Below, one piece after another: positions 15,101 to 29,897 of a DNA stretch of 64,000 nt; positions within the stretch are counted from its first letter, which is position 1; every line of letters begins with the position of its first letter. The notes under the pieces are model-generated. The model made no database searches and was not told the origin of the DNA. It saw only the letters and a list, made by a program, of their open reading frames with translations. This DNA comes from Archangium violaceum (GTDB lineage Bacteria; Myxococcota; Myxococcia; Myxococcales; Myxococcaceae). The stretch lies in the NCBI RefSeq assembly GCF_016859125.1, contig NZ_CP069338.1, forward strand, positions 2,108,001 through 2,172,000. Direction: 5' to 3'. The translations under genes and the position numbers were made by a program.

Positions 15101-15589
15101 TCAGATGCGCGTGAAGGACCAGCTCACCGCGTGGCCGTCGGCGTAGGGCATGACGCCGTGGAAGGACCGCGGGTCGCCGTCGAACACCAGCGGCAGGAAG
15201 TGGCGGTCCCCATCCCAGAGCGGCAGGCTCATGATGTCCTTCACCGGGACCCAGGAGAGCGTCCCCTCCGCGTTGCGCTCGTAGGGCGTGCCCTCGAAGC
15301 GGTCGATGCGGAAGACGAAGCCGAGCCAGTCCTCTCCCTTCGGGCCGAAGCCGGGCCAGCTGATGGTGCCTCGCAGCGTCAGCTCCGTGCACTCGATGCC
15401 CGCCTCCTCGCGAATCTCCCGGCGCATGCAGGAGACCACGTCCTCGCCGGGCTCCATCTTCCCGCCGAGCCCGTTGTACTTGCCGAGGTGCGCATCGTTC
15501 TGACGCGCATTGCGATGGATGAGCAGCACCTTCGTCCCGTCCGGGGACATGACGTAGCCGAGCGTGCCAATGATGGGCGTGTAGCGCAT
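15101..15589 (-). CDS. Nudix hydrolase (MutT/8-oxo-dGTP diphosphatase-like)
   Basis: 162 residues. A full Nudix box is present at about residues 37-59 (GGKMEPGEDVVSCMRREIREEAGIE), giving the Mg-binding REIREEAG glutamates. The opening MRYTPIIGTLGYVMSPDGTKVLLIHRN and the segment GKYNGLGGK are typical of bacterial 8-oxo-dGTP diphosphatase-like proteins of this size. It would hydrolyse a nucleoside diphosphate-linked compound, perhaps sanitising oxidised dGTP. The start at 15589 is chosen because the upstream open frame (to 15742) lacks protein character. Confidence 0.88.
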   Translation of the reverse strand: MRYTPIIGTLGYVMSPDGTKVLLIHRNARQNDAHLGKYNGLGGKMEPGEDVVSCMRREIREEAGIECTELTLRGTISWPGFGPKGEDWLGFVFRIDRFEGTPYERNAEGTLSWVPVKDIMSLPLWDGDRHFLPLVFDGDPRSFHGVMPYADGHAVSWSFTRI

Positions 15590-16093
15590 GGAGTGGCTCT
15601 TACCGCTCACGGAGCGCGCCGCAAGAAGGTAGCGGGTAGGTGACAGAGGGCCTACTGCCTCCGGCTCCCGGCCGGAGCCCTTCACGAGGTGTGAAGCACC
15701 ACACGCTTTTTCATCGAACCGAGATTCAAGCAAAACGTCCATTTCCTTTGAGCAAAAATCTTACGGAAAAAATACCGGGTTACGCTGTTTTTACTCGCAG
15801 TCGTGTTTCTCATTGTGTAGGGTGTGAGAGTCCAGGCAGAGCAGCTCCGCATTGGACCAGAGGGGGTTTCATCACGCTGCCACCCAGACCGGGCCCGCGC
15901 GGACTGACGTCAGTCTGCGGGGCGGTCTCGTGCGCTTGTCTGTTGCACCTACCGTTCCTGATGCTCGAGCCGCATTCCCAGGCGAGCCATCGGAACGGCG
16001 GTGACAGGTTTGCGTGCTCACGGGCGAGCAGATACGGGAGTGGTGTGCCCTCCAGCCATGACTCATGCGTCATAGACAAGGAAGGCCTCGAAC
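15590..16093. other. Intergenic region with AT-rich core, divergent promoter
   Basis: About 500 bp between the divergent Nudix and secreted-protein genes with no supported gene. A short GC-rich inverted repeat (CTCCGGC / GCCGGAG) lies near 15658-15677. An AT-rich core runs from about 15700 to 15830, unusual for this genome, and contains a loose -35/-10 pair (TTGAGC, 17 bp, AATACC at about 15748-15776) reading toward the secreted-protein gene. The long leader that would follow may hold a regulatory RNA, but I see no recognisable riboswitch. Confidence 0.4.
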
Positions 16094-17380
16094 ATGAAGA
16101 AATCGTTGCTGTCCGCCGCCGTGGTCGCGATGTCCGTGGGTGCCGCTGGCCAGGCCGCCGCCGCGCCGATGTCCCCCTCCGCCCGCAACGTGGCGCAGTA
16201 CTTCTCCGCCACCGTGCAGGACGCCTTCACCCTGCTGGGGGACACGGATGATGCCACGCTCGTCTATTACGTGCCGCGTCGCGGTGGCGTGGCCGTGCAG
16301 TCGCCGCTGAGCACCTCGCCCATCCCGCGCTTCCAGATCTCCGCCTATTACCCGTCGTTTGGCTTCTTCGCGGGTGAGGAGCTCGTCAATCTGGGTGGCT
16401 CGCTCTCCACCACCAGCGACCTGGGCGCGCTCAGCCTGCTTCAGAGCGAGGCGACCGCGAAGGGCATGCGCATCACCCCGGCTCCGGCGACCAAGGCCCA
16501 GACCAAGTTCCTGCTGTCTGGCTATGCGCCCCCCAATGGCCGCGTCGAGGTCAAGTGTGAGAAGGAGACCTTCCAGATCACCAACCCGACGACGGGGGAG
16601 ACCCGGACGATCACCGTCCCGAAGTGCTACACCCACGAGGATCCGACCCAGCCGTACGACCTCGACACGAACGTGATGTACAAGTTCAACAGCCTGCCCG
16701 CGCTCAACGGCAGTGTCGTGGCCCAGGACATCTCCTTCCAGGCGACCACGCTGCCCGGCTGGACCAACCAGCTGCGCACGTTCATGGCCACGGGCGCCCA
16801 GTGGGACAACGTGCTGTCGGCGAAGATCGACTGGGAGATCAAGACCAGCGAGCTGACCCGCCAGGCGCGCTTCCACGTGAACTGGAAGTCCCTCTTCGAG
16901 CAGGCCAGCGCCTTCGCCGCCTTCCACCTCAGCTCGTGCGTGGACATCGAGGTCCGCGCCTTCTTCCAGCGGCTGGTGCAGTGCTCGGCGGAGAACGAGT
17001 GCGGCATCCGCATCGAGTACCTGCAGTCCAACGGCACCTGGGGCCCCACGGCGCCCAATGACGCCAACTTCATCAACGTGGTGAACGCCGTGCAGAAGCG
17101 GCTCCAGGACGAGCTGTTCAACGAGGTGCGCAAGTACACCACGCCGGTCAATGGCCAGGTGTCCAACCAGACGTCGTCCATCTTCACCCTGCGCGCCAAC
17201 TACGAGAAGCTCATCCTCGAGAAGAACGAGGTGGTCTACATCCAGTACAACCCGGGCCCGACGGACTTCCAGGCGCCCACCATGCTCAACGTGTCCTGCC
17301 TCACGGGCGGCTTCGAGATGGGTCGCGTGAACTGGAACATGAACGATCCGGGCTGCCGCGCGCTGCTGGGCCAGCAGTAA
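16094..17380 (+). CDS. Secreted protein of unknown family
   Basis: 428 residues with a clear signal peptide (MKKSLLSAAVVAMSVGAAGQAAAA, cleavage near AAA-AP). The mature part is beta-rich, with YYVPRRGGVAV early on and several cysteines (VKCEKET, VPKCYTH, SSCVDIE, VQCSAENECG, NVSCLTG, DPGCRAL) that could form disulfides. No domain recognised. It has a strong ribosome binding site (AAGGAAGG) and a long AT-rich upstream region, which suggests regulated expression. A second signal-peptide protein follows after a hairpin; the two may act together, but I see no clear homology between them. Confidence 0.75.
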   Translation: MKKSLLSAAVVAMSVGAAGQAAAAPMSPSARNVAQYFSATVQDAFTLLGDTDDATLVYYVPRRGGVAVQSPLSTSPIPRFQISAYYPSFGFFAGEELVNLGGSLSTTSDLGALSLLQSEATAKGMRITPAPATKAQTKFLLSGYAPPNGRVEVKCEKETFQITNPTTGETRTITVPKCYTHEDPTQPYDLDTNVMYKFNSLPALNGSVVAQDISFQATTLPGWTNQLRTFMATGAQWDNVLSAKIDWEIKTSELTRQARFHVNWKSLFEQASAFAAFHLSSCVDIEVRAFFQRLVQCSAENECGIRIEYLQSNGTWGPTAPNDANFINVVNAVQKRLQDELFNEVRKYTTPVNGQVSNQTSSIFTLRANYEKLILEKNEVVYIQYNPGPTDFQAPTMLNVSCLTGGFEMGRVNWNMNDPGCRALLGQQ

Positions 17381-17394
17381 CCGAGACGTGAGCC

Positions 17395-17435
17395 GGGGGG
17401 CGGGATTCTCCACGAGGAGGGTCCCCGCCCCTCAT
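17395..17435 (+). terminator. GC-rich hairpin between two secreted-protein genes
   Basis: GGGGCGGGA pairs with TCCCCGCCCC (one bulge) across an about 20-base loop, 15 bp after the stop at 17380, followed by CATTTCCCC. It could attenuate or end transcription between the genes at 16094 and 17467. No real T tract. Confidence 0.45.
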
Positions 17436-17466
17436 TTCCCCTCATCCTCCCGCCCCCACAACTTCC

Positions 17467-18291
17467 ATGCGTCTTCCCTACGTCCTTTCCGCAGCCGTGC
17501 TGGGCCTGCTCGCCTTCGTGGCGCCGGCCGCGCACGCCCAGACCGAACCGCCGCTCGACTACGCGCGCACCCTCGAGCAGTCCGGCATGGTGTTCGTGCC
17601 GTACGTGGGCATGAACCGGGGTCCCGTCTACTACACGAGCTACGAGCAGGTTCCGAACGGGCCGCCCACCAACGTCAGTGGGATGCGCAAGCTCATCGTC
17701 AACCTGATCCCAACGGCCCACCGGCAGAACCTGTACAACGGCTTCATCTCCCAGAATGGCATCACCGACGCGAAGGTGCTGCCTCCGGCCAGTGCGTGCC
17801 AGCCGACGGAGGAGATCGCCAACCTGCTCTCCTACATGCCGGCGGGCTACACGCCGAGGATCCTCGCGGGCAACTACCCCATCGCCTGCAGCCTGAGTCT
17901 CTTCTTCCTGAGTGACAGCGAGGCGGAAGTGCTGTCCATCATCAACTCGCGCCCGGTCATCACCCTGCGCGCGTCCATCCCGCTGTGCGACCCGGCGAGC
18001 CAGAAGCTGAACATCTCCCCCATCAACCAGAGGCTCGTGACGGACGGGGTGCTGCAGAGCACCTCCTCGGGCCTGACGGGGAACAGCTGGGACGTCCTCT
18101 TCGAGTCCTCGCGGCTGGCCCAGCTCTCGCCCTCGCTCTTCCTCACCGCGGATCCCCAGGTGGGCTGGGAGGCCTACATCAAGGCGTTCACGCTGGACCT
18201 GAATGCCCAGACGGCCACGATGTCCAGCACCACGGCGAGCCAACCCGTCTACATCTGCACGCCGGACCCGCTGGTGCTGAAGTTCGGGTAG
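17467..18291 (+). CDS. Secreted protein of unknown family
   Basis: 274 residues with a signal peptide (MRLPYVLSAAVLGLLAFVAPAAHAQ, cleavage after AHA). The mature part contains MVFVPYVGMNRGPVYYTSYEQVPNG and several cysteines (SACQPTEE, IACSLSLF, PLCDPAS, YICTPD). No family recognised. It lies 86 bp after another secreted protein on the same strand. No ribosome binding site stands out before the ATG at 17467, but the signal peptide makes this start convincing. Confidence 0.72.
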   Translation: MRLPYVLSAAVLGLLAFVAPAAHAQTEPPLDYARTLEQSGMVFVPYVGMNRGPVYYTSYEQVPNGPPTNVSGMRKLIVNLIPTAHRQNLYNGFISQNGITDAKVLPPASACQPTEEIANLLSYMPAGYTPRILAGNYPIACSLSLFFLSDSEAEVLSIINSRPVITLRASIPLCDPASQKLNISPINQRLVTDGVLQSTSSGLTGNSWDVLFESSRLAQLSPSLFLTADPQVGWEAYIKAFTLDLNAQTATMSSTTASQPVYICTPDPLVLKFG

Positions 18292-18378
18292 GGCGAGACG
18301 CGCTTCAACCCCTGTCAACAGGACGCCAGGAGCAGCCATGGCGGGTGCCGTGGCCACTCCGGCGTGGGAGCACGGGTA

Positions 18379-18690
18379 ATGCCGAGGCATGTGTGGATTC
18401 TGGGTGGGCTCATGTGGTGGACCGCGTGCCCCGGCGAGGGTGGCGTGGAGCCCGAGCAGAGGAAGAGGGAGCTACAGGCCTGCGTCCTCCAGCGCCTGCC
18501 CCCCGCGGAGGCCACGGCCACGGAGTGGAGGGTATCCGGGTACGTGCTGGTGGATGCGTATGTGAAGTGTCAGGAGAAGCCGGAGCAGGCGACGGCCGCG
18601 GACTTCCGCGCCGTGGTGCAGGAGATTGCCCGGCTGGAATCGGATTCCTCGTCGGTGCGGATCACCGCCCTCCCAGGAGGCACGCAGTGA
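18379..18690 (+). CDS. Small putative lipoprotein, hypothetical
   Basis: 103 residues from ATG 18379 (an ATG-less GTG at 18364 is the alternative). The N-terminus MPRHVWILGGLMWWTACPG looks like a lipoprotein signal with lipobox WTAC. The mature part is a helical domain with two more cysteines (LQACVLQ, VKCQEK). Its stop overlaps the GTG start of the following multiheme cytochrome gene (GTGA), so the two are translationally coupled and probably function together. No family recognised. Confidence 0.65.
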   Translation: MPRHVWILGGLMWWTACPGEGGVEPEQRKRELQACVLQRLPPAEATATEWRVSGYVLVDAYVKCQEKPEQATAADFRAVVQEIARLESDSSSVRITALPGGTQ

Positions 18691-19835
18691 AGTGTTTGTT
18701 CGTCCTCATCCTGCTCGTGGGCCCGGGAGCCCTCGCCAGCGCGCTGGAGGTGGACGAGTGCGTCGGGTGCCATACCGCCCGGCGCAACGAGCCGAAGTCC
18801 CGCTTCGCCAACGGCCTGGGGCACTGGAATGACAGCCAATGCTATGGCTGCCACGCGGAGCTGAACGACGTGGCCGCGCAGAAGCAGAAGGGGAAGACGG
18901 ACCGGCGCTACTACGCCGTGCCCGTGCGCGAGGAGAAGCTGGCGCAGCTCGCCACCTCCCCGCTGGCGTACATGAATGCCCCGGAGACCGTGGAGCCACC
19001 AGAGGGGGCCGTCCCCCGGGTGTCCTGGGAGCGGCTCGCGGCCTTCCTGAAGCGTCCGAGCAACCTCTCCCCTCAGCAGGGAAGCCGGGCACCAAGGATG
19101 ATGGCCTACCCCGCCCTCCAGCCCAAGGCGTTGAAGGCCGTGGCGGGTCTCCTGGGGGTGCGGCAGCCGGCCCGGGAGAAGGCGCCCGCGAAGCTGACGG
19201 TGGAGGAGCGGCGCCAGGCCGACGCGCTGTGGACGGCCCGCTGCTTCAGCTGCCATGGAGGCCCGAAGCCGGTGTCGGGCCGGAGTGGTGTGTCGCTGGG
19301 GCTCTACACCGCCGAGTGGCTGCGGGACTACGCGGCCGGGAAGGTCCGTGCGCCTCGCGAGGCGCGCACCATGCCCGTGGTGCCCCTCTCCACCGGAGAG
19401 GCGAAGCTCCTGTACCGGCTCTTCGGAGAGATGAGGGCCGAGGCGGAACGGGAGCTGGATGCGCGAGTCTCCCGACTGAAGTTGGAGGAGATGGCCGTCC
19501 CCACGGAGCTGCCGCCCGCGTTGCTGGGCTATCTCTGGGGGCCGTTCTTCCGGGACGCAACCTGCGTCCATTGTCACGCGACCAGCCCGCGTGCCGCGAG
19601 TGCCTTCACCGCGGACGCGGAGGGCCTGAAGGCCTACCTGCGCCGCGAATCCGGCGAGGAATTCTGGCGCCGGTTGGAGACCCGCGCGCTGGAGGCCGAG
19701 CACGGGCTCGTCGCCGCGCGACCTGGCATGCCCATGGCCGGAGTGGAGCTCCCCCTGGAGCTCCGGCGCGTCATCGCACGCTGGGTGTTGGATGGATGCA
19801 AGGACCCCGAGGGGCAAACCTGGTGCCGTCACTGA
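18687..19835 (+). CDS. Tetraheme c-type cytochrome
   Basis: 382 residues from GTG 18687, with a signal peptide (MKCLFVLILLVGPGALASA). Four CxxCH heme sites are visible: Cys25-His29 (CVGCH), Cys52-His56 (CYGCH), Cys186-His190 (CFSCH) and Cys293-His297 (CVHCH). The spacing suggests an N-terminal diheme part and two C-terminal monoheme cytochrome c-like domains. It is periplasmic or surface-exposed and would carry electrons. No catalytic motif of a known oxidase or peroxidase was recognised. Translation is coupled to the small lipoprotein upstream (4-bp overlap). Partner and pathway unknown. Confidence 0.85.
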   Translation: MKCLFVLILLVGPGALASALEVDECVGCHTARRNEPKSRFANGLGHWNDSQCYGCHAELNDVAAQKQKGKTDRRYYAVPVREEKLAQLATSPLAYMNAPETVEPPEGAVPRVSWERLAAFLKRPSNLSPQQGSRAPRMMAYPALQPKALKAVAGLLGVRQPAREKAPAKLTVEERRQADALWTARCFSCHGGPKPVSGRSGVSLGLYTAEWLRDYAAGKVRAPREARTMPVVPLSTGEAKLLYRLFGEMRAEAERELDARVSRLKLEEMAVPTELPPALLGYLWGPFFRDATCVHCHATSPRAASAFTADAEGLKAYLRRESGEEFWRRLETRALEAEHGLVAARPGMPMAGVELPLELRRVIARWVLDGCKDPEGQTWCRH

Positions 19836-19858
19836 CGGCCATTTCGTCGAGGCTGTGC

Positions 19859-22105
19859 ATGTCTGGTAGGCAATCCCTCCGAGCACGGAGAATGTGTCTG
19901 ACGTTGGCGGTGCTGCTCGGCGTGGGGCTCGTGACGGGTTGTGGGTGGGCACCCGGCGTGGAGGAGTCCATGCCGGGGCGGGTGCGCTCTCCCCTCGGGG
20001 GCCGGCCCGCCGCCGCGAGGCTGGCGCTGGGGCAGTACCACTCGGTGGGCGTGCACTCGGATGGGACGGTGTGGGCCTGGGGGTACAACCGTCAGGGCCA
20101 GCTCGGAAACGGGACGCTCACCGACAGCCCCACGCCGGTGCAGGTGACGTACCTGGGTGGAGTGGTGTCCGTGGCCTCCGGAGACTACCACTCCCTGGGG
20201 CTGCGCTCGGACGGCACGGTGTGGGCCTGGGGTGACAACTACAGCGGCCAGCTCGGCAATGGGACGAACACCGCCAGCCCCGTGCCGGTGCGGGTGAAGA
20301 ACCTGAGCGGAGTGGTCTCGCTCGGCTCCGGGTTCTCCCATGCCCTGGCGCTGCGCTCGGACGGCACGGTGTGGGCCTGGGGCGACAACCGCTACAGCCA
20401 GCTCGGGAACGTGGGGGCGACCAGTAGCAACCTGCCCGTGCAGGTGCCGGGCCTGAGCGGTGTCATCGCCGTGGTGGCCGGCGGCTACTACTCGCTGGCG
20501 CTGCGCTCGGATGGCACGGTGTGGGGCTGGGGCGACAACCGCTTCGGCCAGCTCGGGGATGGCACGACGGCCACGAGGAAGGTGCCGGTGCGGGTGTCGG
20601 ACCTGAGCGGGGTGGTGACCCTCTCCGCCGGCTCCTCCCATACCGTGGCGCTGCGCTCGGATGGCACGGTATGGGCCTGGGGCCTCAATACGTATGGCCA
20701 GCTCGGGGATGGGACGAACACCAACCGGCTCCAGCCCGTGCAGGTGGGCCTGAGCGACGTGATGACGCTGGTCGCCGGCAACTACCACTCGCTGGCGGTG
20801 CGCTCCGACGGCGCGGTGTGGGCCTGGGGTGACAATCGCTACCGCCAGCTCGGCAATGGGACGACCACCAGCAGCCGCGTGCCCGTTCAGTCCGGCTTGA
20901 GCGGAGGCGTCACCCTGGTGGCGGGGTACAAGCACTCGCTCGTGCTGCGCTCGGATGGCACCGTGTGGTCCTGGGGTGACAATGTCTTCGGCCAGCTCGG
21001 GGATGGCACGTTCAACCCCCGGAGCTCCGCGGTGAAGGTGTCGTTCCTGTCGTTGGGCAGGGCGGATGTGACGTCCGGCCAGCTCCACTCCGTGGTGCTG
21101 GACTCGAACGGCTCGGTGTGGGTCTGGGGTGACAACTACAACGGGCAGCTCGGCAATGGGACGGGCCTCGACAGTCTCGTCGCGGCCCCCCTGAACCTGG
21201 GTGGGGGCGTGGCCGTCTCGGCCGGGTTCAAATACACCGTGGTGCTCAAGGCCGACACCACGGTGTGGAGTTGGGGCGTCAACGAGTACGGGCAGCTCGG
21301 GGATGGGACCTTCACGGACAGGCCCCGGCCCGTGCAGGTGGTGGGGCTCTCCGGTGTCTCCGCGGTGGCGGCTGGCAACTACCACGCGCTGGCCTTGCGC
21401 TCGAACGGCACGGTGTGGGCCTGGGGCTTCAACCGCTACGGCCAGCTCGGAGATGGAACGACCACGGACAGGACCCAGCCCGTGCAGGTGGTGGGGCTGT
21501 CCGGAATCGTGGCCGTGGCGGCCGGAGACAGCCATTCCCTGGCCCTGCGCTCGGACGGCACGGTGTGGGCCTGGGGGTACAACTTCGACGGCCAGATTGG
21601 CAGTGGCTCGTACGCCTGGCACATCCAGCCCGTGCAGGTGGCGGGGCTCTCCGACGTGGTGTCCGTGGCCGCTGGCGGCTACCACTCGCTGGCGCTGCGC
21701 TCGGACGGCACGGTGTGGACCTGGGGCTACAACGGCTCGGGCCAGCTCGGGGATGGGACGACGGCGCTCAACAGCCCCTCGCCGGTGCAGGTGGCGGGTC
21801 TGAGCGGCGTGGTGTCCGTGGCCGCCGGCAACTACCACTCGCTGGCGCTGCACTCGAACGGCACGGTGCGCGCCTGGGGCTTCAACTTCGACGGCCAGCT
21901 CGGGGATGGAACGCTCATCAATCGCAACACACCAGTCCAGGTGACGGGCCTGAGCGGCGTGGTGTCCGTGGTCGCCGGGGACTACCACACCCTGGCGCTG
22001 CGCTCGGACGGCTCGGCCTGGGCCTGGGGCTACAACGGCGAAGGCCAGCTCGGGGACGGGACGCGCGACGACACCCTCGTGCCCGTCCGCGTCCTGGGCA
22101 TCTGA
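19859..22105 (+). CDS. RCC1-repeat lipoprotein
   Basis: 748 residues. N-terminal lipoprotein signal (CLTLAVLLGVGLVTGCG, lipobox VTGC), then about 670 residues made of 14 RCC1-type repeats of roughly 48-52 residues, each with a HSLALRSDGTVWAWG-like core followed by GQLGDGT and PVQV. RCC1 domains form seven-bladed propellers, so 14 repeats fit two propellers in tandem. This is known of the fold; the arrangement here is inferred. Repeats at about 21050-21300 are the most diverged (LDSNGSVWVWG, LKADTTVWSWG). Likely a cell-surface binding protein. An alternative start is ATG 19892. It follows the cytochrome by 23 bp and precedes a VWA protein by 6 bp, so it may share their transcript. Confidence 0.88.
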   Translation: MSGRQSLRARRMCLTLAVLLGVGLVTGCGWAPGVEESMPGRVRSPLGGRPAAARLALGQYHSVGVHSDGTVWAWGYNRQGQLGNGTLTDSPTPVQVTYLGGVVSVASGDYHSLGLRSDGTVWAWGDNYSGQLGNGTNTASPVPVRVKNLSGVVSLGSGFSHALALRSDGTVWAWGDNRYSQLGNVGATSSNLPVQVPGLSGVIAVVAGGYYSLALRSDGTVWGWGDNRFGQLGDGTTATRKVPVRVSDLSGVVTLSAGSSHTVALRSDGTVWAWGLNTYGQLGDGTNTNRLQPVQVGLSDVMTLVAGNYHSLAVRSDGAVWAWGDNRYRQLGNGTTTSSRVPVQSGLSGGVTLVAGYKHSLVLRSDGTVWSWGDNVFGQLGDGTFNPRSSAVKVSFLSLGRADVTSGQLHSVVLDSNGSVWVWGDNYNGQLGNGTGLDSLVAAPLNLGGGVAVSAGFKYTVVLKADTTVWSWGVNEYGQLGDGTFTDRPRPVQVVGLSGVSAVAAGNYHALALRSNGTVWAWGFNRYGQLGDGTTTDRTQPVQVVGLSGIVAVAAGDSHSLALRSDGTVWAWGYNFDGQIGSGSYAWHIQPVQVAGLSDVVSVAAGGYHSLALRSDGTVWTWGYNGSGQLGDGTTALNSPSPVQVAGLSGVVSVAAGNYHSLALHSNGTVRAWGFNFDGQLGDGTLINRNTPVQVTGLSGVVSVVAGDYHTLALRSDGSAWAWGYNGEGQLGDGTRDDTLVPVRVLGI
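20030..22102 (+). repeat. 14 tandem RCC1 coding repeats (about 150 bp each)
   Basis: Direct in-gene repeats of about 145-156 bp marked by recurring CTGGCGCTGCGCTCGGA and CGGTGTGGGCCTGGGG. The near-identity of several units suggests recent unit duplication or homogenisation. Confidence 0.85.
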
Positions 22106-22111
22106 GAGGAG

Positions 22112-23113
22112 ATGGAAGTGAAGACCCAGACATTGTCCAGGTTGGGCTCGTACGTGCTCCTGCTCGCCGCCCTCGCGCTGCTCCCATGGGCCGGCGAGGC
22201 GATGGCTCAATCCTTCAGCGAAAGGCACGTCATCATCGTCATCGACCGCAGTGGCTCCATGCAGATGGTGCGGAGCAATGGGCAGACCCGGTTCACCGAG
22301 GCCATCAAGCGCGCCAGGTCCTACGTCAACCTGTCCTCGCCGCTGCCCCGCTCCTTCGCCGTCTGGACGTTCGAGGAGTCCTCCTACATCAAGGAGCAGG
22401 GTTTCGCGGATGCCGCGACCACGCTCGCGACCCTGAACCGACTGAGCGTCGGGAATGGGGTGACGCCCCTCGCCCTCGCGGTCTGTGACGCCGTGGACGA
22501 GCTCCTGCAATACAATCCAGGTGTCACGGCGGAGAAGGTGGTCCGTCTGGTCTCCGATGGCGAGGAGAACAGCACCCCCCCCAGCTCCCCGTGCTACGGC
22601 CCCGACAGCGCCACGCCCTATCCAGACCTCACGATGGATTCCTGGCAGTGGAAGGTCCGCAACATGCTCAAGACGGGAGATCCGTTGAGGGATGACCCGG
22701 GGCCCTACAAGCTCGTGTTCGACGTCGATGTCTTGTATAATTACATCAGCTTCGCCAGCACCGGGAGCCCGGTCCGCGAAGTCTCCTCCACCGGGAGGAG
22801 CGCGGTGCCCGTCCAGCCCAGGTTGACCTCCGCCTATCTTGCCTTTCTCCAGGGCGTGTCCACGGCCTCGGGGGGCACATTCACCGCGATTGGCGATTCG
22901 AGCCCCGTACCGGTCTTTGGAGACACCAACCAGGATTACTGTGTCAACGAAACGGACTACAACCTGGTGCTCGGCTACTACGGCCAAGCGGTTCCTCCCG
23001 CGCCCGCGGCGGCGGATGTGAACCATGACAGGGTGGTCGATTACTATGACTACACCATCGTCGTGAACAATTACGGCTCGGGTTGTGGCGCGAGCTCCGC
23101 GGTGAGCAGGTAG
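22112..23113 (+). CDS. Secreted VWA-domain protein with C-terminal dockerin-like repeats
   Basis: 333 residues. Signal peptide (YVLLLAALALLPWAGEAMAQ, cleavage after AMA), then a von Willebrand A domain from about residue 38 with an intact metal site start, VIDRSGSM (DxSxS), and LVSDGEENS as the later acidic loop. The C-terminal 60 residues contain two calcium-loop motifs, DTNQDYCVNETDY and DVNHDRVVDYYDY, in the pattern of a type I dockerin. VWA domains bind proteins through a metal ion; dockerins bind cohesins. No cohesin is visible in the window. Begins 6 bp after the RCC1 gene. It is a close paralogue of the next gene and of the one at 27398. Confidence 0.85.
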   Translation: MEVKTQTLSRLGSYVLLLAALALLPWAGEAMAQSFSERHVIIVIDRSGSMQMVRSNGQTRFTEAIKRARSYVNLSSPLPRSFAVWTFEESSYIKEQGFADAATTLATLNRLSVGNGVTPLALAVCDAVDELLQYNPGVTAEKVVRLVSDGEENSTPPSSPCYGPDSATPYPDLTMDSWQWKVRNMLKTGDPLRDDPGPYKLVFDVDVLYNYISFASTGSPVREVSSTGRSAVPVQPRLTSAYLAFLQGVSTASGGTFTAIGDSSPVPVFGDTNQDYCVNETDYNLVLGYYGQAVPPAPAAADVNHDRVVDYYDYTIVVNNYGSGCGASSAVSR

Positions 23114-23148
23114 AACGCAGTCAACGCAGGAAAGCGAAAGGAATGAAG

Positions 23149-24159
23149 ATGATGAAGGGTACGATCCAATTGTTGGCGGTCGCCGTTTTCACCCTGGTCA
23201 TGCAGGCGGGCGAGGCTCTGGCCCAGCCCCCTCCGGTCCCCACCGAGCAGCACAGCATCATCGTCGTGGATCGCAGTGGCTCCATGACGGTCACGCGCTC
23301 CGATGGCCAGACCCGCTTCCAGGCGGCCATCCAGAATGCCAAGGACTATGTGAACCTGCCGCTCGCCATCCCCCATTTCTTCTCCGTCTGGTCCTTCGAG
23401 GGCACCAGCTACATCAAGGAGCAGGGGTTCGCGAGCGCCACGACCACGATCGCCACCCTGAACAGGCTGACTGTGGGCACTGGCGTCACGCCCCTGGCCT
23501 ATACGGTCTGCGACGCCATCGACGCGCTCTTCACCTTCAAGCCGGAGCTCGGCAACAAGGCGCGGAAGGTGGTGAAGCTGGTTTCCGACGGTGAGGAGAA
23601 CAGCACGCCGGCCGGCACCCAGTGCCACGGCCCCTCGAGCACGCTGAACACCCCGCCCTACACGGCGGGCTCCTGGGAGTGGAAGGTCTACAACAAGTTC
23701 GCGACCCTCAATCCCAATACGCCTCCTCCCGCGGGTGCCTTCTTCCCGGCGGTGCTCAACGTGACCGTGCTGGGCGGCTACATCAGCCTCCGGAGCGCCT
23801 CGTCCTCCGCGCTCGAGTACTCCCCGGAGGGCCATGCCATGGCGCCGCGCTCCATGTCGAAGCTGGCGGACTTCTACTCGTTCCTCCAGACGCTCGCGCA
23901 GGACTCCGGTGGTACCTTCACCCAGATCGAGGACGCGAAGCCCGCTCCGGTCTTCGGTGATACCAACGGCGACTTCTGCGTGGACGGCACGGACTACAAC
24001 GAGGTCATGGCGAACTTCACCTTCACCGTTCCGCCCGGCAATCCCGCGGCGGACTTCAACAACGACAAGGTCGTCGACTACTACGACTACGTGATCGTCG
24101 TGAACAACCAGGGCGCGGGCGCCGGCTGCGGCTCGAGCTCGCTCCTCATCAACAAGTAG
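23149..24159 (+). CDS. Secreted VWA-domain protein with C-terminal dockerin-like repeats (paralogue)
   Basis: 336 residues from ATG 23149, chosen because AAAGGA at 23137-23142 touches the ATG at 23143 but stands 6 bp before 23149; 23143 would add two residues. Signal peptide (QLLAVAVFTLVMQAGEALAQ), VWA domain with VVDRSGSM and LVSDGEENS, and dockerin-like loops DTNGDFCVDGTDY and DFNNDKVVDYYDY. It is colinear with the upstream paralogue throughout, so a tandem duplication. A strong hairpin terminator follows, ending this transcription unit. Confidence 0.85.
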   Translation: MMKGTIQLLAVAVFTLVMQAGEALAQPPPVPTEQHSIIVVDRSGSMTVTRSDGQTRFQAAIQNAKDYVNLPLAIPHFFSVWSFEGTSYIKEQGFASATTTIATLNRLTVGTGVTPLAYTVCDAIDALFTFKPELGNKARKVVKLVSDGEENSTPAGTQCHGPSSTLNTPPYTAGSWEWKVYNKFATLNPNTPPPAGAFFPAVLNVTVLGGYISLRSASSSALEYSPEGHAMAPRSMSKLADFYSFLQTLAQDSGGTFTQIEDAKPAPVFGDTNGDFCVDGTDYNEVMANFTFTVPPGNPAADFNNDKVVDYYDYVIVVNNQGAGAGCGSSSLLINK

Positions 24160-24183
24160 TCAACCCGGAGAAGTATCTGGCGG

Positions 24184-24215
24184 AAGGAAGGACGGAAGCC
24201 CTCGCGTCCTTCCTT
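24184..24215 (+). terminator. Strong hairpin after the VWA genes
   Basis: AAGGAAGGACG (24184-24194) pairs perfectly with CGTCCTTCCTT (24205-24215) over a 10-base loop, followed by TCGTCGTTTC. It lies 25 bp after the stop at 24159, the position and shape of an intrinsic terminator though the T run is short. Confidence 0.7.
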
Positions 24216-24273
24216 TCGTCGTTTCAGAATGATTCGAGCCACATGCGGTGGCGTGCTCGCCCAGGGGTAGGAG

Positions 24274-27200
24274 ATGCAACTTCGCCGCGAAGCCCTCACG
24301 ATGCTCGTGCTCGCAGCCCTCTCGGCCTGCGACAATCCCCTCCCGCAGCGTGACATCTCCGAGGCGCCCCCTCACGTCCACATCACTTCCCTGGAGCCGC
24401 AGCGGGGTGTGCCCACCCTCCTCTGGAGCCAATCCCGGGAGTCGAGCCCGGAAGCACATTCCACTCCCGAGGCCGCCGCGTCCTGGTACCTGGAGCGGCT
24501 CGCGCCGCTCTACCACCTGGGAGAAGCCACACTCCGCACGGCCGCCATCCACCAGGTGCACGATACGGGCCGCGGCGGCATCCTCGTCTCCTTCCGCCAG
24601 CGCGTCGAGGGTATCGAGGTCCTCGATAGCAAGCTCGAGGTGCTGCTGACGCGTGACCTCCAGCTGGTCGCCGTGGGCGGCAACCTCCAGGAAGCAGACA
24701 GGCCCCGACCATACGCCTTCCGGCTCTCCCATGGGGAGGCCGTGGCGCACGCGCTCGGCGAGCTGTCGCGTGTCGCGGGCGCATCCGCGGACCTGCGTGA
24801 GTTGGAGCCGATGCCAGGAGGATTCCGCGCCTTCGCGCTGGCTCCTGGCAGGGCCTTCGACGGCGCCCGGATGACGCTCGTCGCACCCGCCCGGACGAAG
24901 CGGGTCCTCTTCCCGAGGAATGGCCAGCTCGTCCCCGCGTACTACGTCGAGACCAACCTCGGGACGGATGCGAGCAACAGCTCCAACGCGGAGGCTTTCG
25001 TCGTCTCCGCGGAGGATGGCGCCGTGCTGCGGCGCCAGGAGCTGACCCACGCGGATTCCTTCGAGTACCGGGTCTGGGCGGAGGCGGACGGGGCTGGAAC
25101 CCCCCTCGATGGACCGCAGGCCGACTACACACCACATCCCTCGGGTACTCCGGATGGGACCGGACCCGCCTTCATTCCCCCGCGATGGGTGTCGATGGAG
25201 GGCTTCAACGGAAGGGGAGATGTCTGGCTTCCCCCCGGTGCGACCGAGAGCCGTGGCAACAACGTCGATGCCTATGCGGACCTCTCCGCTCCCGATGGCT
25301 TCACGCCCGGGTCCGACTTCCGCGCGGCGACCGTCCCGGGGAGCAGGCGCTTCGACCATGTCTATGACACGAGCCTCGGACCCCTGGCCCATGCCGAGCA
25401 GACCCAGGCCGCCGTCACCCAGCTCTTCTACACGACCAACTGGCTCCACGATGACTTCTACGTCTCTGGCTTCGACGAGGCCGCTGGGAATGCCCAGGCC
25501 AGCAACTTCGGCCGGGGCGGCCTGGAAGGAGATCCGCTGCTCGCCGAGGCCCAGGGCCATGAAGGCTCCAACAACGCCTTCATGAGCGTGCCCGCGGATG
25601 GTGAGTCACCGCGCATGCAGGTCTTCATCTGGCTGGGTCCGGAGGAGCACTTCGTGGAGGTCTCCGGCCAGCGCTACCCGACAGGCATGGCCTTCTTCGG
25701 CTCGCAGCACTTCCAGGTCACCCAACCCCTGGTGCTCGTGAACGATGGAGTCGCCGCTCCGAGCACTCATGATGGATGTGAGGCCATGGGCGGCGGGCTG
25801 GGTGGAACCGTGGTCATGATCGAGCGTGGGACGTGCCCCATGGCGCTCAAGGCCCGGAACGCCGAGCAGGCGGGCGCCTCGGGAGTCATCATCCTCAACA
25901 ACGTACCGGGCGCCCCACCGCCCCGGATGACGAATGACGACGCGTCGATCGTCGTGAAGATCCCCGTGCTCTCGGTGACGTACGAGGATGGCGAGCGTCT
26001 CGTCCAGCTCGCCGGGCAGCAGGACTCCCTCACCGCGATCCTGTGGCGGGGTTCCATCGATCGTGACGGCTCCCTCGACAACACGCTCGTGGCCCACGAG
26101 TGGGGACATTACCTGCACCTGCGCCTGATGAGCCCGTGCACCACGACCCAGTGCCTCGCCATGAGCGAGGGCTGGGCGGACTTCATCGCCCTGCACATGC
26201 TGCTCCGTGAAGGTGATTCGCTCGAGGGGAGCTACGCCCTCGCCCCCTATGCGGGCGTCGCGCTCGGCAACAACAGCGCCTACTTCGGCATCCGCCGGGC
26301 CCCCTATTCCGTCAACAAGGGCATCAACGACTTGAGCCTCCGGCACATCTCCGAGGGCGAGCCCCTGCCCACCCATCACCCCATGGCCAGCCGGAAGCCC
26401 GGGAACTCGGAGATCCACAACGCGGGGGAGATCTTCGCGAGTCTGTTGTTCGAGGGGTACGTCGCCCTGCTCCGGGAGACGCGGCTTCCCACACCCCGGT
26501 ACAGCTTCCAGACGGCCAGGCGCCGCATGGCCGACTACATCGTCGCCGCGATGAAGCTCGCGCCTCCCAACGCGACCTATACCGAGCAACTCCAGGCGCT
26601 CCTGGCGGTCGCGGCGGCCCAGGATCTGACGGACCACGCGCTCCTCGCCGAGGCCTATGCCCGCCGGGGGGCGGGGCCGAACGCCATCGCCCCACCGCGA
26701 AACTCGGTGGACCTGACCGGAGTCGTCGAGGACTTCTCCGTGAGCAGCCCCGGTTCCGGCTATCCGGTGGCGCAAGCGGGTCCGGACCAGACCGTCCCGG
26801 GTGGCCGACGCGTGCACCTGGATGCCTCCGGAAGCCAGGCGCCGAAGGGTGGCGCCCTGACATTCCAATGGCACCAGGTATCGGGCCCCCCCGTGGTGCT
26901 CGAGGAGGGTGGGAAGAGCGCCGCGACGTTCACCGCGCCCGTGGTGCCCGTGGACACGGTGCTGGCCTTCCGCGTCACCGTGGGGCAGGACAACCGTGCG
27001 ACCGTCGATACGGTGGAGGTCCGCGTGCTCGCCGGGGATTCAGGCCCCGTGGATGGCGGCGTGGACGCGGGCAGTGATGCGGGCGTCGATGCTGGCACTC
27101 CGGATGATGATGCCGGCACTCCGGATGACGACGCGGGCACCGATGCAGGGGTCGAGCCACCTCCGCCGTCCGATGGAGGTACGGAGCCGGATGCTGGCAC

Positions 27201-27372
27201 CGAGAACCCGGGCACCTCCGATCCCGGCTGCGGCTGCGGGGCGGGCTCCGGTGCACCACACTCCACGTTCCTCTTCGCGCTCCTGGCGATCCTCGGGTTG
27301 CATCGAAGCCAGCGAAGACATTCCGCCCGGGGCCCGGCGGGCGCTCGCGCTCCCGGGACCCGAGTCGAGTGA
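24274..27372 (+). CDS. M36 (fungalysin-type) metalloprotease with PA domain, PKD-like domain and MYXO-CTERM tail
   Basis: 1032 residues. The N-terminus MQLRREALTMLVLAALSAC looks like a lipoprotein signal (LSAC). Then a propeptide with FTP-like character (about 60-250) and the M36 catalytic region, with zinc motif HEWGH at 608-612 and the third ligand Glu632 in SEGWADF. A PA domain is inserted at about 480-590 (GTVVMIERGTCPMALKARNAEQAGASGVIILNN). After the catalytic part comes a PKD-like domain (AGPDQTVPGGRRVHLDASGS), an Asp/Gly/Pro linker, and DPGCGCGAG plus a hydrophobic segment and Arg-rich end, the MYXO-CTERM signal processed by a myxosortase. A secreted or surface protease sitting between VWA paralogues. 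Confidence 0.9.
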   Translation: MQLRREALTMLVLAALSACDNPLPQRDISEAPPHVHITSLEPQRGVPTLLWSQSRESSPEAHSTPEAAASWYLERLAPLYHLGEATLRTAAIHQVHDTGRGGILVSFRQRVEGIEVLDSKLEVLLTRDLQLVAVGGNLQEADRPRPYAFRLSHGEAVAHALGELSRVAGASADLRELEPMPGGFRAFALAPGRAFDGARMTLVAPARTKRVLFPRNGQLVPAYYVETNLGTDASNSSNAEAFVVSAEDGAVLRRQELTHADSFEYRVWAEADGAGTPLDGPQADYTPHPSGTPDGTGPAFIPPRWVSMEGFNGRGDVWLPPGATESRGNNVDAYADLSAPDGFTPGSDFRAATVPGSRRFDHVYDTSLGPLAHAEQTQAAVTQLFYTTNWLHDDFYVSGFDEAAGNAQASNFGRGGLEGDPLLAEAQGHEGSNNAFMSVPADGESPRMQVFIWLGPEEHFVEVSGQRYPTGMAFFGSQHFQVTQPLVLVNDGVAAPSTHDGCEAMGGGLGGTVVMIERGTCPMALKARNAEQAGASGVIILNNVPGAPPPRMTNDDASIVVKIPVLSVTYEDGERLVQLAGQQDSLTAILWRGSIDRDGSLDNTLVAHEWGHYLHLRLMSPCTTTQCLAMSEGWADFIALHMLLREGDSLEGSYALAPYAGVALGNNSAYFGIRRAPYSVNKGINDLSLRHISEGEPLPTHHPMASRKPGNSEIHNAGEIFASLLFEGYVALLRETRLPTPRYSFQTARRRMADYIVAAMKLAPPNATYTEQLQALLAVAAAQDLTDHALLAEAYARRGAGPNAIAPPRNSVDLTGVVEDFSVSSPGSGYPVAQAGPDQTVPGGRRVHLDASGSQAPKGGALTFQWHQVSGPPVVLEEGGKSAATFTAPVVPVDTVLAFRVTVGQDNRATVDTVEVRVLAGDSGPVDGGVDAGSDAGVDAGTPDDDAGTPDDDAGTDAGVEPPPPSDGGTEPDAGTENPGTSDPGCGCGAGSGAPHSTFLFALLAILGLHRSQRRHSARGPAGARAPGTRVE

Positions 27373-27397
27373 TTCCCCCCCACAACCAGGAGGACAC

Positions 27398-28033
27398 ATG
27401 AAGACGAACCCCCCCAAGCTCCAGCTGCTCGCAGCCGTCGCTTTCAGCCTGCTCATCTCATTCAACGAGGCCGCGGCCCAACCGCCCACCGAGCGGCACA
27501 CCCTCATCCTCATCTCGAATGGCGAGTCCATGTCGACGGTGGGTGCCGACGGCATCACACGCCTTGAAAGAGCGATCCAACAGGCGAGGAACCTCGTGAA
27601 TCTCCCGTTGTCCATCCCCCAGTACTTCGCCGTCTGGACGTTCGAGGGCTCCTCCTACATCGAGTGGCAAGGCTTTTCGAGCGCCACCACCACACACCTC
27701 ACGCTGAACTCCCTTCAGGTCGGCTCCGGCACCTCCCATCCTCTCGCCTACGCACTCTGTGAGGCCGCGGACAGGCTCCTCGCATACAGGCAGGGGACGG
27801 TCACCGCGCAAAAGATGGTGTACCTGCTCACCGATGGCGAGGAGAACAGCACCCCGGTGGGGACCCAGTGCTACGGCCCCAGCAGCGCATTGGATGCCCC
27901 GAATTTCACTCCAGGCTCCTGGGAGTGGAAGGTGCGCAACAAGTTCGCGACGGGCAACCCCAACACACCGCCCGCGAGTTACAGCTACCCGCTCGTGAAC
28001 TTGTCGAATGCCTGGAGCGGGTACATCCAGTGA
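27398..28033 (+). CDS. Shortened VWA paralogue with altered metal site
   Basis: 211 residues after an excellent ribosome binding site (AGGAGG, spacing 6). Signal peptide (LLAAVAFSLLISFNEAAAQ), then a domain colinear with the VWA proteins at 22112 and 23149, including YFAVWTFEGSSYIEWQGF and LLTDGEENSTPVGTQC. Two differences: the metal-site opening DRSGSM is replaced by SNGESM, losing the first Asp, and the protein stops at WSGYIQ, the point where the paralogues continue for another 70-110 residues including the dockerin-like repeats. It may be a decaying copy or a metal-independent variant; the intact start signals favour expression. Confidence 0.72.
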   Translation: MKTNPPKLQLLAAVAFSLLISFNEAAAQPPTERHTLILISNGESMSTVGADGITRLERAIQQARNLVNLPLSIPQYFAVWTFEGSSYIEWQGFSSATTTHLTLNSLQVGSGTSHPLAYALCEAADRLLAYRQGTVTAQKMVYLLTDGEENSTPVGTQCYGPSSALDAPNFTPGSWEWKVRNKFATGNPNTPPASYSYPLVNLSNAWSGYIQ

Positions 28034-28037
28034 GTGC

Positions 28038-29897
28038 TCAGTCCCGGTAGCCCCGGGCTTGAAGGTTGAACAGGTGCGCGTAGCGCCCGTTGCGCGCCAT
28101 CAGCTCCGTGTGGCTGCCCAGCTCCTCCACCTCGCCGTTGTGCAGCACGGCGATCCGGTCCGCCATCCGCACCGTCGAGAAGCGGTGTGAAATCACCAGG
28201 GCGATCCGGTCCGCCGCCAGCTCCTGGAACCGCTCGAACAGCACGTGCTCCGACTCCGCGTCGATGCTCGCCGTCGGCTCATCCAGGATGAGCACCTCCG
28301 CGTCCTCCCGCATGAAGGCCCTCGCCACCCCGAGCTTCTGCCACTGTCCTCCGCTCAGCTCGTGCCCCTTCTCGAACCAGCCTCCCAACATCGTGTCGTA
28401 CTGCTTCGGCAGCGTCGCGATCACCCCGCTCGCCCCGCCCTGCTCCGCCGCTCGGACGATCCGGTTCCGGTCCTCCAGCGCCGGCACGTGCCCCAGTCCG
28501 ATGTTCTCCGCCACGTTGAACTGGTAGCGCACGAAGTCCTGGAACACCGCCCCGAACCGCGAGCGCAGATCCTCCGGATCCATGTCCTTCAGGTTCACGC
28601 CCCCGTAGAGGATTTCTCCCTCCGTCGGCTCGTACAGCCGCAGGAGCAGCTTCACCAGCGTGCTCTTCCCCGCCCCGTTCTCCCCCACCAGCGCCAGTTT
28701 CTCCCCCGGCTCCAGCCGCAGCGACAGGTTGCGCAGCGCCCACGCCTCCTTCCCCGGATAGCGGAACGACACGTTGCGCAGCTCGATGGCGTTGCCCCTC
28801 CCCCTCGAAGCCGTCAGCGCCGGCACCACCCTGGGCGCCTCCTGGCCCGTGGGTATCTCCAGGTACGCGAAGAGGTTGCTCATGAAGAGCGCGCCCTCGT
28901 ACATGCTGCCCACGCTCGAGAGGCTCCCCTGGAACGCCGCCTGCCCCTGCCGGAACACCCCCAGGTACAGCACCATGTCGCCCACCGTGATGGAGCCCCG
29001 CGCCGCTCGGTCCGCCACGAACGCGTAGCACCCGTAGAACGCCCCCAGCGACAGCAGCCCCAGCCCCAGCCCCCACCCCATCCGCTTCATCGCCAGCGCC
29101 CGGTCCTCCTGGAAGAACTTCTGGAACAGCGTCCGGTAACGCCCCAACACCAGCGGGCCCAGCCCGAACACCTTCACCTCCTTCACGTGGTTGTCCCGCG
29201 TGAGGATCCACTCCAGGTAGTTCAGCTTGCGGCCCTCGGGTGCCCGCCACGAGTGCAACCGGAATCCCTCCCCCGCCAGCCGCGCCTCCGCGATGAACGC
29301 CGGGATGCTCGCCGCCACCAGCACCACCACGCTCCACGGAGAGAGCGATACCAGCAGCACCGCGTACGTCGACAACGTCACCAGGTTGCGCACGATGGTG
29401 AACGCGTCCATCACCAGCCCCAGGGGCCGGCTGTTCGCCTCGCGCCGCGCGTTCTGCATCTTGTCGTACGTGTCCGAGTCCTCGAAGTGCCTCAGCTCCA
29501 GCTGTAGCGCCTTCTCGAGGATGCGCTCGTTGAGCAGGTTGCCCAGGTTGGCCCGTACCAGCTCACGCGTCAGCGACAGCGCCCGGTCCACCATCGCCGA
29601 GCCCACCATCAACCCGAACTCCAGCACCACCAGTCGCAGCACCTGCGTCCGCACGGCGTCGCTCCCGTCCTTCGCCGCCGCCACCACCCCGTCCACGATG
29701 AGCTTGCCCACCCAGGCGATCGCCGCCGGCAGCACCGCCGCCACCAGGGTGAGCACCGCCAGCATCACCGCGCCTCGGGGACTCGATGCCCAGAAGAGGC
29801 GGAAGGTGCCCGGCAGCTGCCGGAAGAGGCTGCCCGTGTTCTTCAGCCGGACTTTGAGGGGTTGGGGAGGACGAGGGGCGGAATACGGAGGAGACAC
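28038..29897 (-). CDS. ABC transporter, fused permease and ATPase
   Basis: 619 residues from GTG 29897, preceded by AGAGGG at good spacing. The N-terminal half (about 40-345) is a six-helix exporter permease; the C-terminal half (about 375-615) is the nucleotide-binding domain with Walker A GENGAGKST, signature LSGGQ, Walker B VLILDEPTAS and the switch His in VISHRFST. A half-size exporter of this kind works as a homodimer. Substrate is not evident. It ends 4 bp from the stop of the convergent shortened VWA gene. Confidence 0.92.
   Translation of the reverse strand: MSPPYSAPRPPQPLKVRLKNTGSLFRQLPGTFRLFWASSPRGAVMLAVLTLVAAVLPAAIAWVGKLIVDGVVAAAKDGSDAVRTQVLRLVVLEFGLMVGSAMVDRALSLTRELVRANLGNLLNERILEKALQLELRHFEDSDTYDKMQNARREANSRPLGLVMDAFTIVRNLVTLSTYAVLLVSLSPWSVVVLVAASIPAFIAEARLAGEGFRLHSWRAPEGRKLNYLEWILTRDNHVKEVKVFGLGPLVLGRYRTLFQKFFQEDRALAMKRMGWGLGLGLLSLGAFYGCYAFVADRAARGSITVGDMVLYLGVFRQGQAAFQGSLSSVGSMYEGALFMSNLFAYLEIPTGQEAPRVVPALTASRGRGNAIELRNVSFRYPGKEAWALRNLSLRLEPGEKLALVGENGAGKSTLVKLLLRLYEPTEGEILYGGVNLKDMDPEDLRSRFGAVFQDFVRYQFNVAENIGLGHVPALEDRNRIVRAAEQGGASGVIATLPKQYDTMLGGWFEKGHELSGGQWQKLGVARAFMREDAEVLILDEPTASIDAESEHVLFERFQELAADRIALVISHRFSTVRMADRIAVLHNGEVEELGSHTELMARNGRYAHLFNLQARGYRD

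Follow-up and report, generated by a model that had tools for sequence, protein, structure and literature searches.

The window analysed here, 64,000 nucleotides of the 12.68 Mb genome of Archangium violaceum, carries a very probably acquired island of approximately 12.4 kb (15641..28035), delimited by comparison with empty sites in related genomes and with a matching block in a genome of another genus (G033). The island holds nine genes, all on the plus strand. Its left part encodes, in order, F3 (16094..17380), an exported orphan family of 428 amino acids, belonging to no Pfam, NCBIfam or PDB family; F5 (17467..18291), an exported orphan family of 274 amino acids, belonging to no named family; F6 (18379..18690), a 103-amino acid putative lipoprotein with a conserved lipobox-like cysteine; an exported tetraheme c-type cytochrome (F4, 18687..19835), with four CxxCH motifs and Pfam cytochrome domains, whose gene overlaps that of F6 by 4 bp; and an RCC1 lipoprotein with 14 repeats (F2, 19859..22105, alternative start 19892). 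In the right part, three genes for von Willebrand factor A (VWA) proteins flank an M36 protease gene.

A strongly hydrophobic N-terminus is present in 8/9 island genes, as compared to 14/41 of the other called genes in the window, membrane proteins included (Fisher p 0.0065); the gene lacking it is F6. This enrichment, together with the Pfam and NCBIfam domains found, confirms the block of exported genes that an earlier note had described, by name and coordinates, from the sequence. The RCC1 lipoprotein and the tetraheme cytochrome of that note were borne out, and the gaps of 23, 6 and 35 bp that it gave are correct (starts 19859, 22112 and 23149), 23143 being an equally good start for the second VWA gene. 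Its gene list was incomplete: F6 was missed, and the two orphans, F3 and F5, belong to the core.

Among 96 genomes of the family Myxococcaceae, F3 and the cytochrome match exactly the same 15 (Fisher 8e-18), which hold 16 cassette loci and fall into 4 of 26 genera. The conserved order is F3-F5-F6-cytochrome-RCC1, usually with a VWA-dockerin gene next. F3, F5, cytochrome and RCC1 keep order and strand at 16/16 loci. F6 is present at all 16, as a called gene between F5 and the cytochrome at 15, and as a full-length tblastn match at the sixteenth (G003); its 4-bp overlap with the cytochrome gene recurs at 14 of the 15 loci with a called F6. A VWA gene follows RCC1 after 0-126 bp, on the same strand, at 14/16 loci, the two exceptions, G003 and G058b, having it upstream on the opposite strand. 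The contig of one locus (L074, in G061) is 10 kb long and offers little flank on the right. Across the 195 genomes of the phylum, F3, F5 and F4 are, with few exceptions, confined to the 15 cassette genomes; outside them are a remnant in G072, a distantly related F3 in G073 and, in three genomes, weak fragments of the cytochrome. As judged from this gene order, F3-F5-F6-cytochrome-RCC1 is almost certainly a real conserved cassette. The idea of the earlier note, a coherent exported module matching no described system that could be found, is thus supported. At the centre of the block, that note had placed the VWA-M36 part, the one that turned out to be least conserved: M36 (family F13) is present at 3/16 loci, those of A. 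violaceum, G033 and G032. A limited literature search, by title and start of abstract among the papers listed, found no published description of the cluster.

The borders of the island are sharp. Six empty sites were examined, those of 5/5 congeners (G002-G006) and the syntenic site of G033. Homology to the window stops at 15640 in five of them and at 15655 in the sixth (G004), and restarts at 28035-28038 in all six. The DNA at the empty site measures about 110 bp in G003, 100 bp in G005 and 40 bp in G033. The insertion point (15640-15641 / 28035-28036) is itself variable, with unrelated DNA of 2.6-3.1 kb in G002, G004 and G006. Outside the island, a NUDIX hydrolase gene on the left (15101..15589, minus strand) occurs at the empty sites too, and an ABC transporter gene on the right (28038..29897, minus strand) is 89-92% identical in 5/5 congeners. 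G033 carries a colinear 12.4-kb block elsewhere in its genome, beside glycolysis and secG genes. The two blocks are 88.9% identical in DNA and align over 15643-28034, the left 100 bp of the alignment being weak by eye; both end one base past the stop codon of the third VWA gene. No integrase, transposase or relaxase family was found among the island proteins by scans against Pfam and NCBIfam (Pfam only for F6). By eye, no target-site duplication is obvious at the junctions, and no conserved promoter is visible upstream of F3.

Synonymous divergence (dS) between A. violaceum and G033 is 0.10 for F3, 0.13 for F5, 0.14 for F2 and 0.18 for F4, as against 0.35-0.65 for three flanking genes. For the remaining island genes it is 0.19 (VWA2), 0.25 (M36), 0.25 (F6), 0.36 (VWA1) and 0.41 (VWA3). 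The F3 protein is 94% identical to that of G033, versus 54% to the cassette copy of the congener G003 and 67% to a second copy in G003 that lacks a cytochrome, despite the grouping of A. violaceum with G003 by rpoB (96.7% identity, versus 95.1% to G033). Horizontal transfer is the simplest reading of this discrepancy. Pairwise identities of F3, F5, F4 and F2 correlate with each other (rho 0.72-0.92) and barely with rpoB (rho 0.12-0.23), which indicates that the core genes move together, in one piece. The rpoB comparisons used 119/120 pairs, the same-genome pair G058a/G058b being dropped, and the additional F3 paralogues of loci L081 and L082 were excluded from trees and correlations. The cassette tree has two deep groups, and G058 holds one cassette of each, 54.5% identical. 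Nine genomic contexts can be told apart among the 16 loci from the families that they share in their flanks. Taken together, these comparisons make it very probable that the island was gained from a relative by horizontal transfer. The earlier note had proposed lack of conservation in close relatives as a refutation; the block is absent from the site in 5/5 congeners, one of which (G003) has a divergent cassette elsewhere. Since the block was acquired horizontally, this test would have misled.

The core is also found outside the phylum. A search of 72,556 plasmid records gave a single matching record, the same one for F3, F5 and the cytochrome: pSU1 of the gammaproteobacterium Agarilytica rhodophyticola, with identities of 44%, 32% and 34%, respectively. 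Their order is kept, the F5 and cytochrome genes are 4 bp apart, and the genes are annotated as hypothetical proteins and cytochrome c. The same order on a gammaproteobacterial plasmid argues for a mobile cassette. For judging how widely it is distributed, one plasmid record offers little to build on. In the pSU1 cluster (L141:12407-19847), the trio is preceded by an F3 paralogue that carries two F5/8 type C domains, and a 535-amino acid weak relative of F3 comes after it; the match of the pSU1 protein P0014 to F3 is weak (E 0.0011). The galactose-binding F5/8 type C domains of the paralogue fit an extracellular role. VWA1 has no match on any plasmid record. F3 has none in phage records, and pattern scans of viral contigs with F3 and the cytochrome, which miss distant copies, confirmed no relative.

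Scans of F3 and F5, extended to 18 and 16 relatives, respectively, brought up no Pfam family at an E-value better than 0.05, and no homology was found between the two. On F6, no Pfam model reached its cut-off. Alignments of F3, F5 and the cytochrome, searched as profiles against the PDB, yielded no useful match, one having an E-value of 0.69. Both F3 and F5 have conserved cysteines, several of which are missing in the plasmid copies. In the cytochrome, an alignment spanning the two phyla (6 of the 16 myxobacterial copies and the pSU1 copy) shows as invariant the four CxxCH motifs, Met138/139, Met229, Met348/350 and Cys371/380, and no histidine outside the CxxCH sites. The conserved methionines suggest mostly His/Met-ligated, high-potential hemes, which would count against a low-potential, mineral-reducing wire.

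The 14 repeats of the RCC1 lipoprotein would form two propellers. VWA1 (22112..23113) is exported and has an intact metal ion-dependent adhesion site (MIDAS, motif DxSxS...T...D) and a dockerin; VWA2 (23143..24159) is its tandem paralogue, also with an intact MIDAS. Both pass the VWA_2 cut-off (PF13519; E 8.5e-7 and 5.8e-6), PF00092 staying below cut-off on the VWA proteins. Dockerin_1 is over its cut-off of 22.9 bits in VWA1 (27.2 bits, E 4.6e-6) and below it in VWA2 (20.0 bits, E 8e-4). VWA3 (27398..28033) is truncated and scores 24.8 bits against a VWA_2 cut-off of 27. The first MIDAS aspartate is lost in VWA3 and in its G033 counterpart, which ends at the same point, and neither has a dockerin. 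The third of the VWA paralogues in the earlier note is therefore no VWA-dockerin protein. A ratio of nonsynonymous to synonymous divergence (dN/dS) of 0.41 versus G033 does not establish decay of VWA3. G055 has another truncated VWA, distinct from this one and 212 amino acids long. The M36 metalloprotease (24274..27372; PF02128, E 7.1e-61) has the PA and PKD-like domains that had been described; its MYXO-CTERM-like end, also described, narrowly misses the model (19 bits, cut-off 20). The protease and VWA3 look like late add-ons to the cassette.

Partial and divergent versions of the cassette were also encountered. G072 has a remnant (L106:9676-10843), F5 and F6 alone between flanks common to the cassette-bearing G069, which resembles natural loss in progress; an unfiltered search of G072 with the cassette proteins of the window found nothing beyond these two. 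In G073 (L107:5664-9625), the distant F3 relative heads a four-gene run without Pfam match, three of the genes having signal peptides by eye. This is possibly a third, very divergent cassette version; two of the three genes after the F3 relative were compared with F5, and no similarity was found. G003 (L081:3222-17026) and G032 (L082:6327-16124) each hold a second F3 paralogue beside giant RCC1 proteins (1085-1091 amino acids; 21 repeats in the one scanned), with no cytochrome, an arrangement that supports the link between F3 and RCC1. The L081 cluster includes an S8 subtilase with PKD/Ig domains, and the same subtilase family is present in L082. Four cassette-free clusters (L075-L078, in G004, G063, G062 and G016) have VWA-dockerin genes between proteins of family F8 (724-835 amino acids) and subtilases of family F19; the F19 subtilase scanned, from L075, has a weak dockerin. 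Finally, a small family (130-173 amino acids; no Pfam match in the one scanned) adjoins the cassette at 5/16 loci (L061:14612-15091, L062, L063, L065 and L072), and in G059 and G066 the DNA upstream of F3 seems, by eye, to retain pieces of it.

Our best explanation of the island, held tentatively, is a cassette that moves horizontally and encodes an exported complex of several proteins. In the mechanism that we propose, itself rather doubtful at this stage, F3 and F5 would be folded, disulfide-capable subunits outside the cytoplasm, and the cytochrome would link a reaction taking place at them to the respiratory chain by passing electrons between the two. Binding, docking and display on the cell surface or on vesicles would fall to the RCC1 double propeller, as an outer-membrane lipoprotein, and to the VWA-dockerin proteins, of calcium/MIDAS type. 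Display on vesicles is plausible because, as PMC4158809 reports, Myxococcus xanthus vesicles contain M36 proteases and an RCC1 protein. The M36 protease would have been added in this strain, on the same strand and possibly in the same transcript. Taken as a whole, the module would serve redox and binding functions at the surface in particular niches, and would come and go in the manner of other accessory islands. As a more general speculation, and one to be held with reserve, F3, F5 and the tetraheme cytochrome may be the core of an undescribed mobile extracytoplasmic redox machine that spans two phyla and includes a plasmid-borne version. It would oxidise a protein or polymer bound to the surface, and its binding parts would be exchangeable: RCC1 and VWA-dockerin proteins in myxobacteria, galactose-binding F3 paralogues in the marine gammaproteobacterium.

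Several observations weigh against such a redox complex, or against parts of it. The cassette has no gene for a partner enzyme with a recognised redox active site. All 16 myxobacterial cytochromes share His339 and Met96 as further invariant residues, and given this the assignment of heme ligands is a guess. The cytochrome is not always needed, since the F3-RCC1 clusters of G003 and G032 do without it. AlphaFold models of F3 and F5, built from two-row alignments (window and L009 proteins), reached a mean predicted local distance difference test score (pLDDT) of 37.6 and 35.0, too low for the models to be of any use. No relative of RCC1, VWA or F6 was found in the 31-kb stretch of pSU1, so that the unit shared between phyla is F3-F5-cytochrome, and RCC1, F6 and VWA would be a myxobacterial extension of it. 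The dS values of VWA1 and VWA3 are like those of the flanks. VWA-family matches (E 0.001) are found in 31/96 genomes of the family, 16 of them cassette-free, and VWA identities correlate with the core at rho 0.40-0.58 and with rpoB at rho 0.58. In view of these figures, VWA may be a looser partner, with no more than a weak tie to the core.

The rival that survives best, although we consider it unlikely, is the one put forward by the earlier note, a surface adhesion, predation or matrix-processing module. The VWA-dockerin and RCC1 proteins would bind prey or matrix, the M36 protease would digest it, and the cytochrome would be incidental. RCC1, VWA and PKD are often binding domains. The galactose-binding domains on the pSU1 paralogue of F3 are in line with this proposal, as are the proteases found with the same partners elsewhere, S8-dockerin with VWA-dockerin at L075 and S8 with F3 and RCC1 at L081. 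Protease genes are common in these genomes, however, so that a protease neighbour is weak evidence, and M36 is present at just 3/16 loci. The cytochrome, being present at 16/16 loci and on the plasmid, is not incidental. The vesicle content reported in PMC4158809 agrees with adhesion or predation as well.

An improbable alternative is acquisition or oxidation of a metal or cofactor, in which a metal or small ligand held by F3 and F5 would be oxidised or reduced by the cytochrome for uptake or detoxification. The conserved cysteines of F3 and F5, the exported cytochrome, and a patchy, plasmid-borne occurrence as for niche traits would all suit this role. However, no porin, TonB receptor, permease or metal regulator is found among the island proteins, and the plasmid copies lack several of the F3 and F5 cysteines.

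A collection of exported genes held together by ancient inheritance and differential loss, with no functional unit and only apparent mobility, is very improbable and already disfavoured: the two deep cassette groups, both in G058, could make the deepest split one of paralogy and loss, F2 and F5 show a slight rpoB signal (p 0.03-0.04), and neither a mobility gene nor a target duplication is seen in the island, but gene order is kept at about 50-60% protein identity, across phyla and with a 4-bp gene overlap, empty sites and nine genomic contexts exist, core dS is below flank dS, and core identities are congruent. Anti-phage defence was also considered and rejected, as the 9/9 island proteins gave 0 PADLOC model matches at E 0.01.

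We thus retain the mobile cassette for an exported complex as our explanation. Nameless families moving with a conserved tetraheme cytochrome between genera, with a core that reaches a second phylum and a plasmid, bear the mark of a real, selectable system, and the cassette points to an undescribed redox system at the surface or in the periplasm. It offers defined targets for functional testing: F3, F5 and the cytochrome, natural pairs of close relatives with and without the cassette, the half-decayed copy of G072, and the reduced plasmid version.

Among known systems, the island resembles MtrCAB-type conduits in having an exported multiheme c-type cytochrome within an operon-like run of other exported proteins. 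It differs by its four hemes only, the absence of a decaheme partner, and conserved methionines that suggest His/Met ligation. The cytochrome scores 21 bits against the OmcA/MtrC model (cut-off 209), and no porin family was found in the scans of the island against Pfam and NCBIfam (Pfam only for F6). The cassette hosts are, in addition, probably aerobic. With cellulosomes it shares a type I dockerin on exported proteins, but here the dockerin sits on a VWA protein, and no carbohydrate-active enzyme family is present in the island. A cohesin-dockerin system of the cellulosome type was rejected, 0/19 genomes having a cohesin above cut-off; one match below cut-off was seen in G060 (E 7e-4). The M36 catalytic domain and MYXO-CTERM-like end recall the myxosortase-dependent M36 proteases and MepA of M. 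xanthus, but the island protease is shorter, is accessory in a mobile cassette, and lies well below the subfamily cut-off (NCBIfam myxo_dep_M36, NF038112: 899 bits, cut-off 1500). A counterpart in gene order is the cluster of pSU1, with the same F3-F5-tetraheme cytochrome succession, which differs in that the trio is flanked by F3-like proteins.

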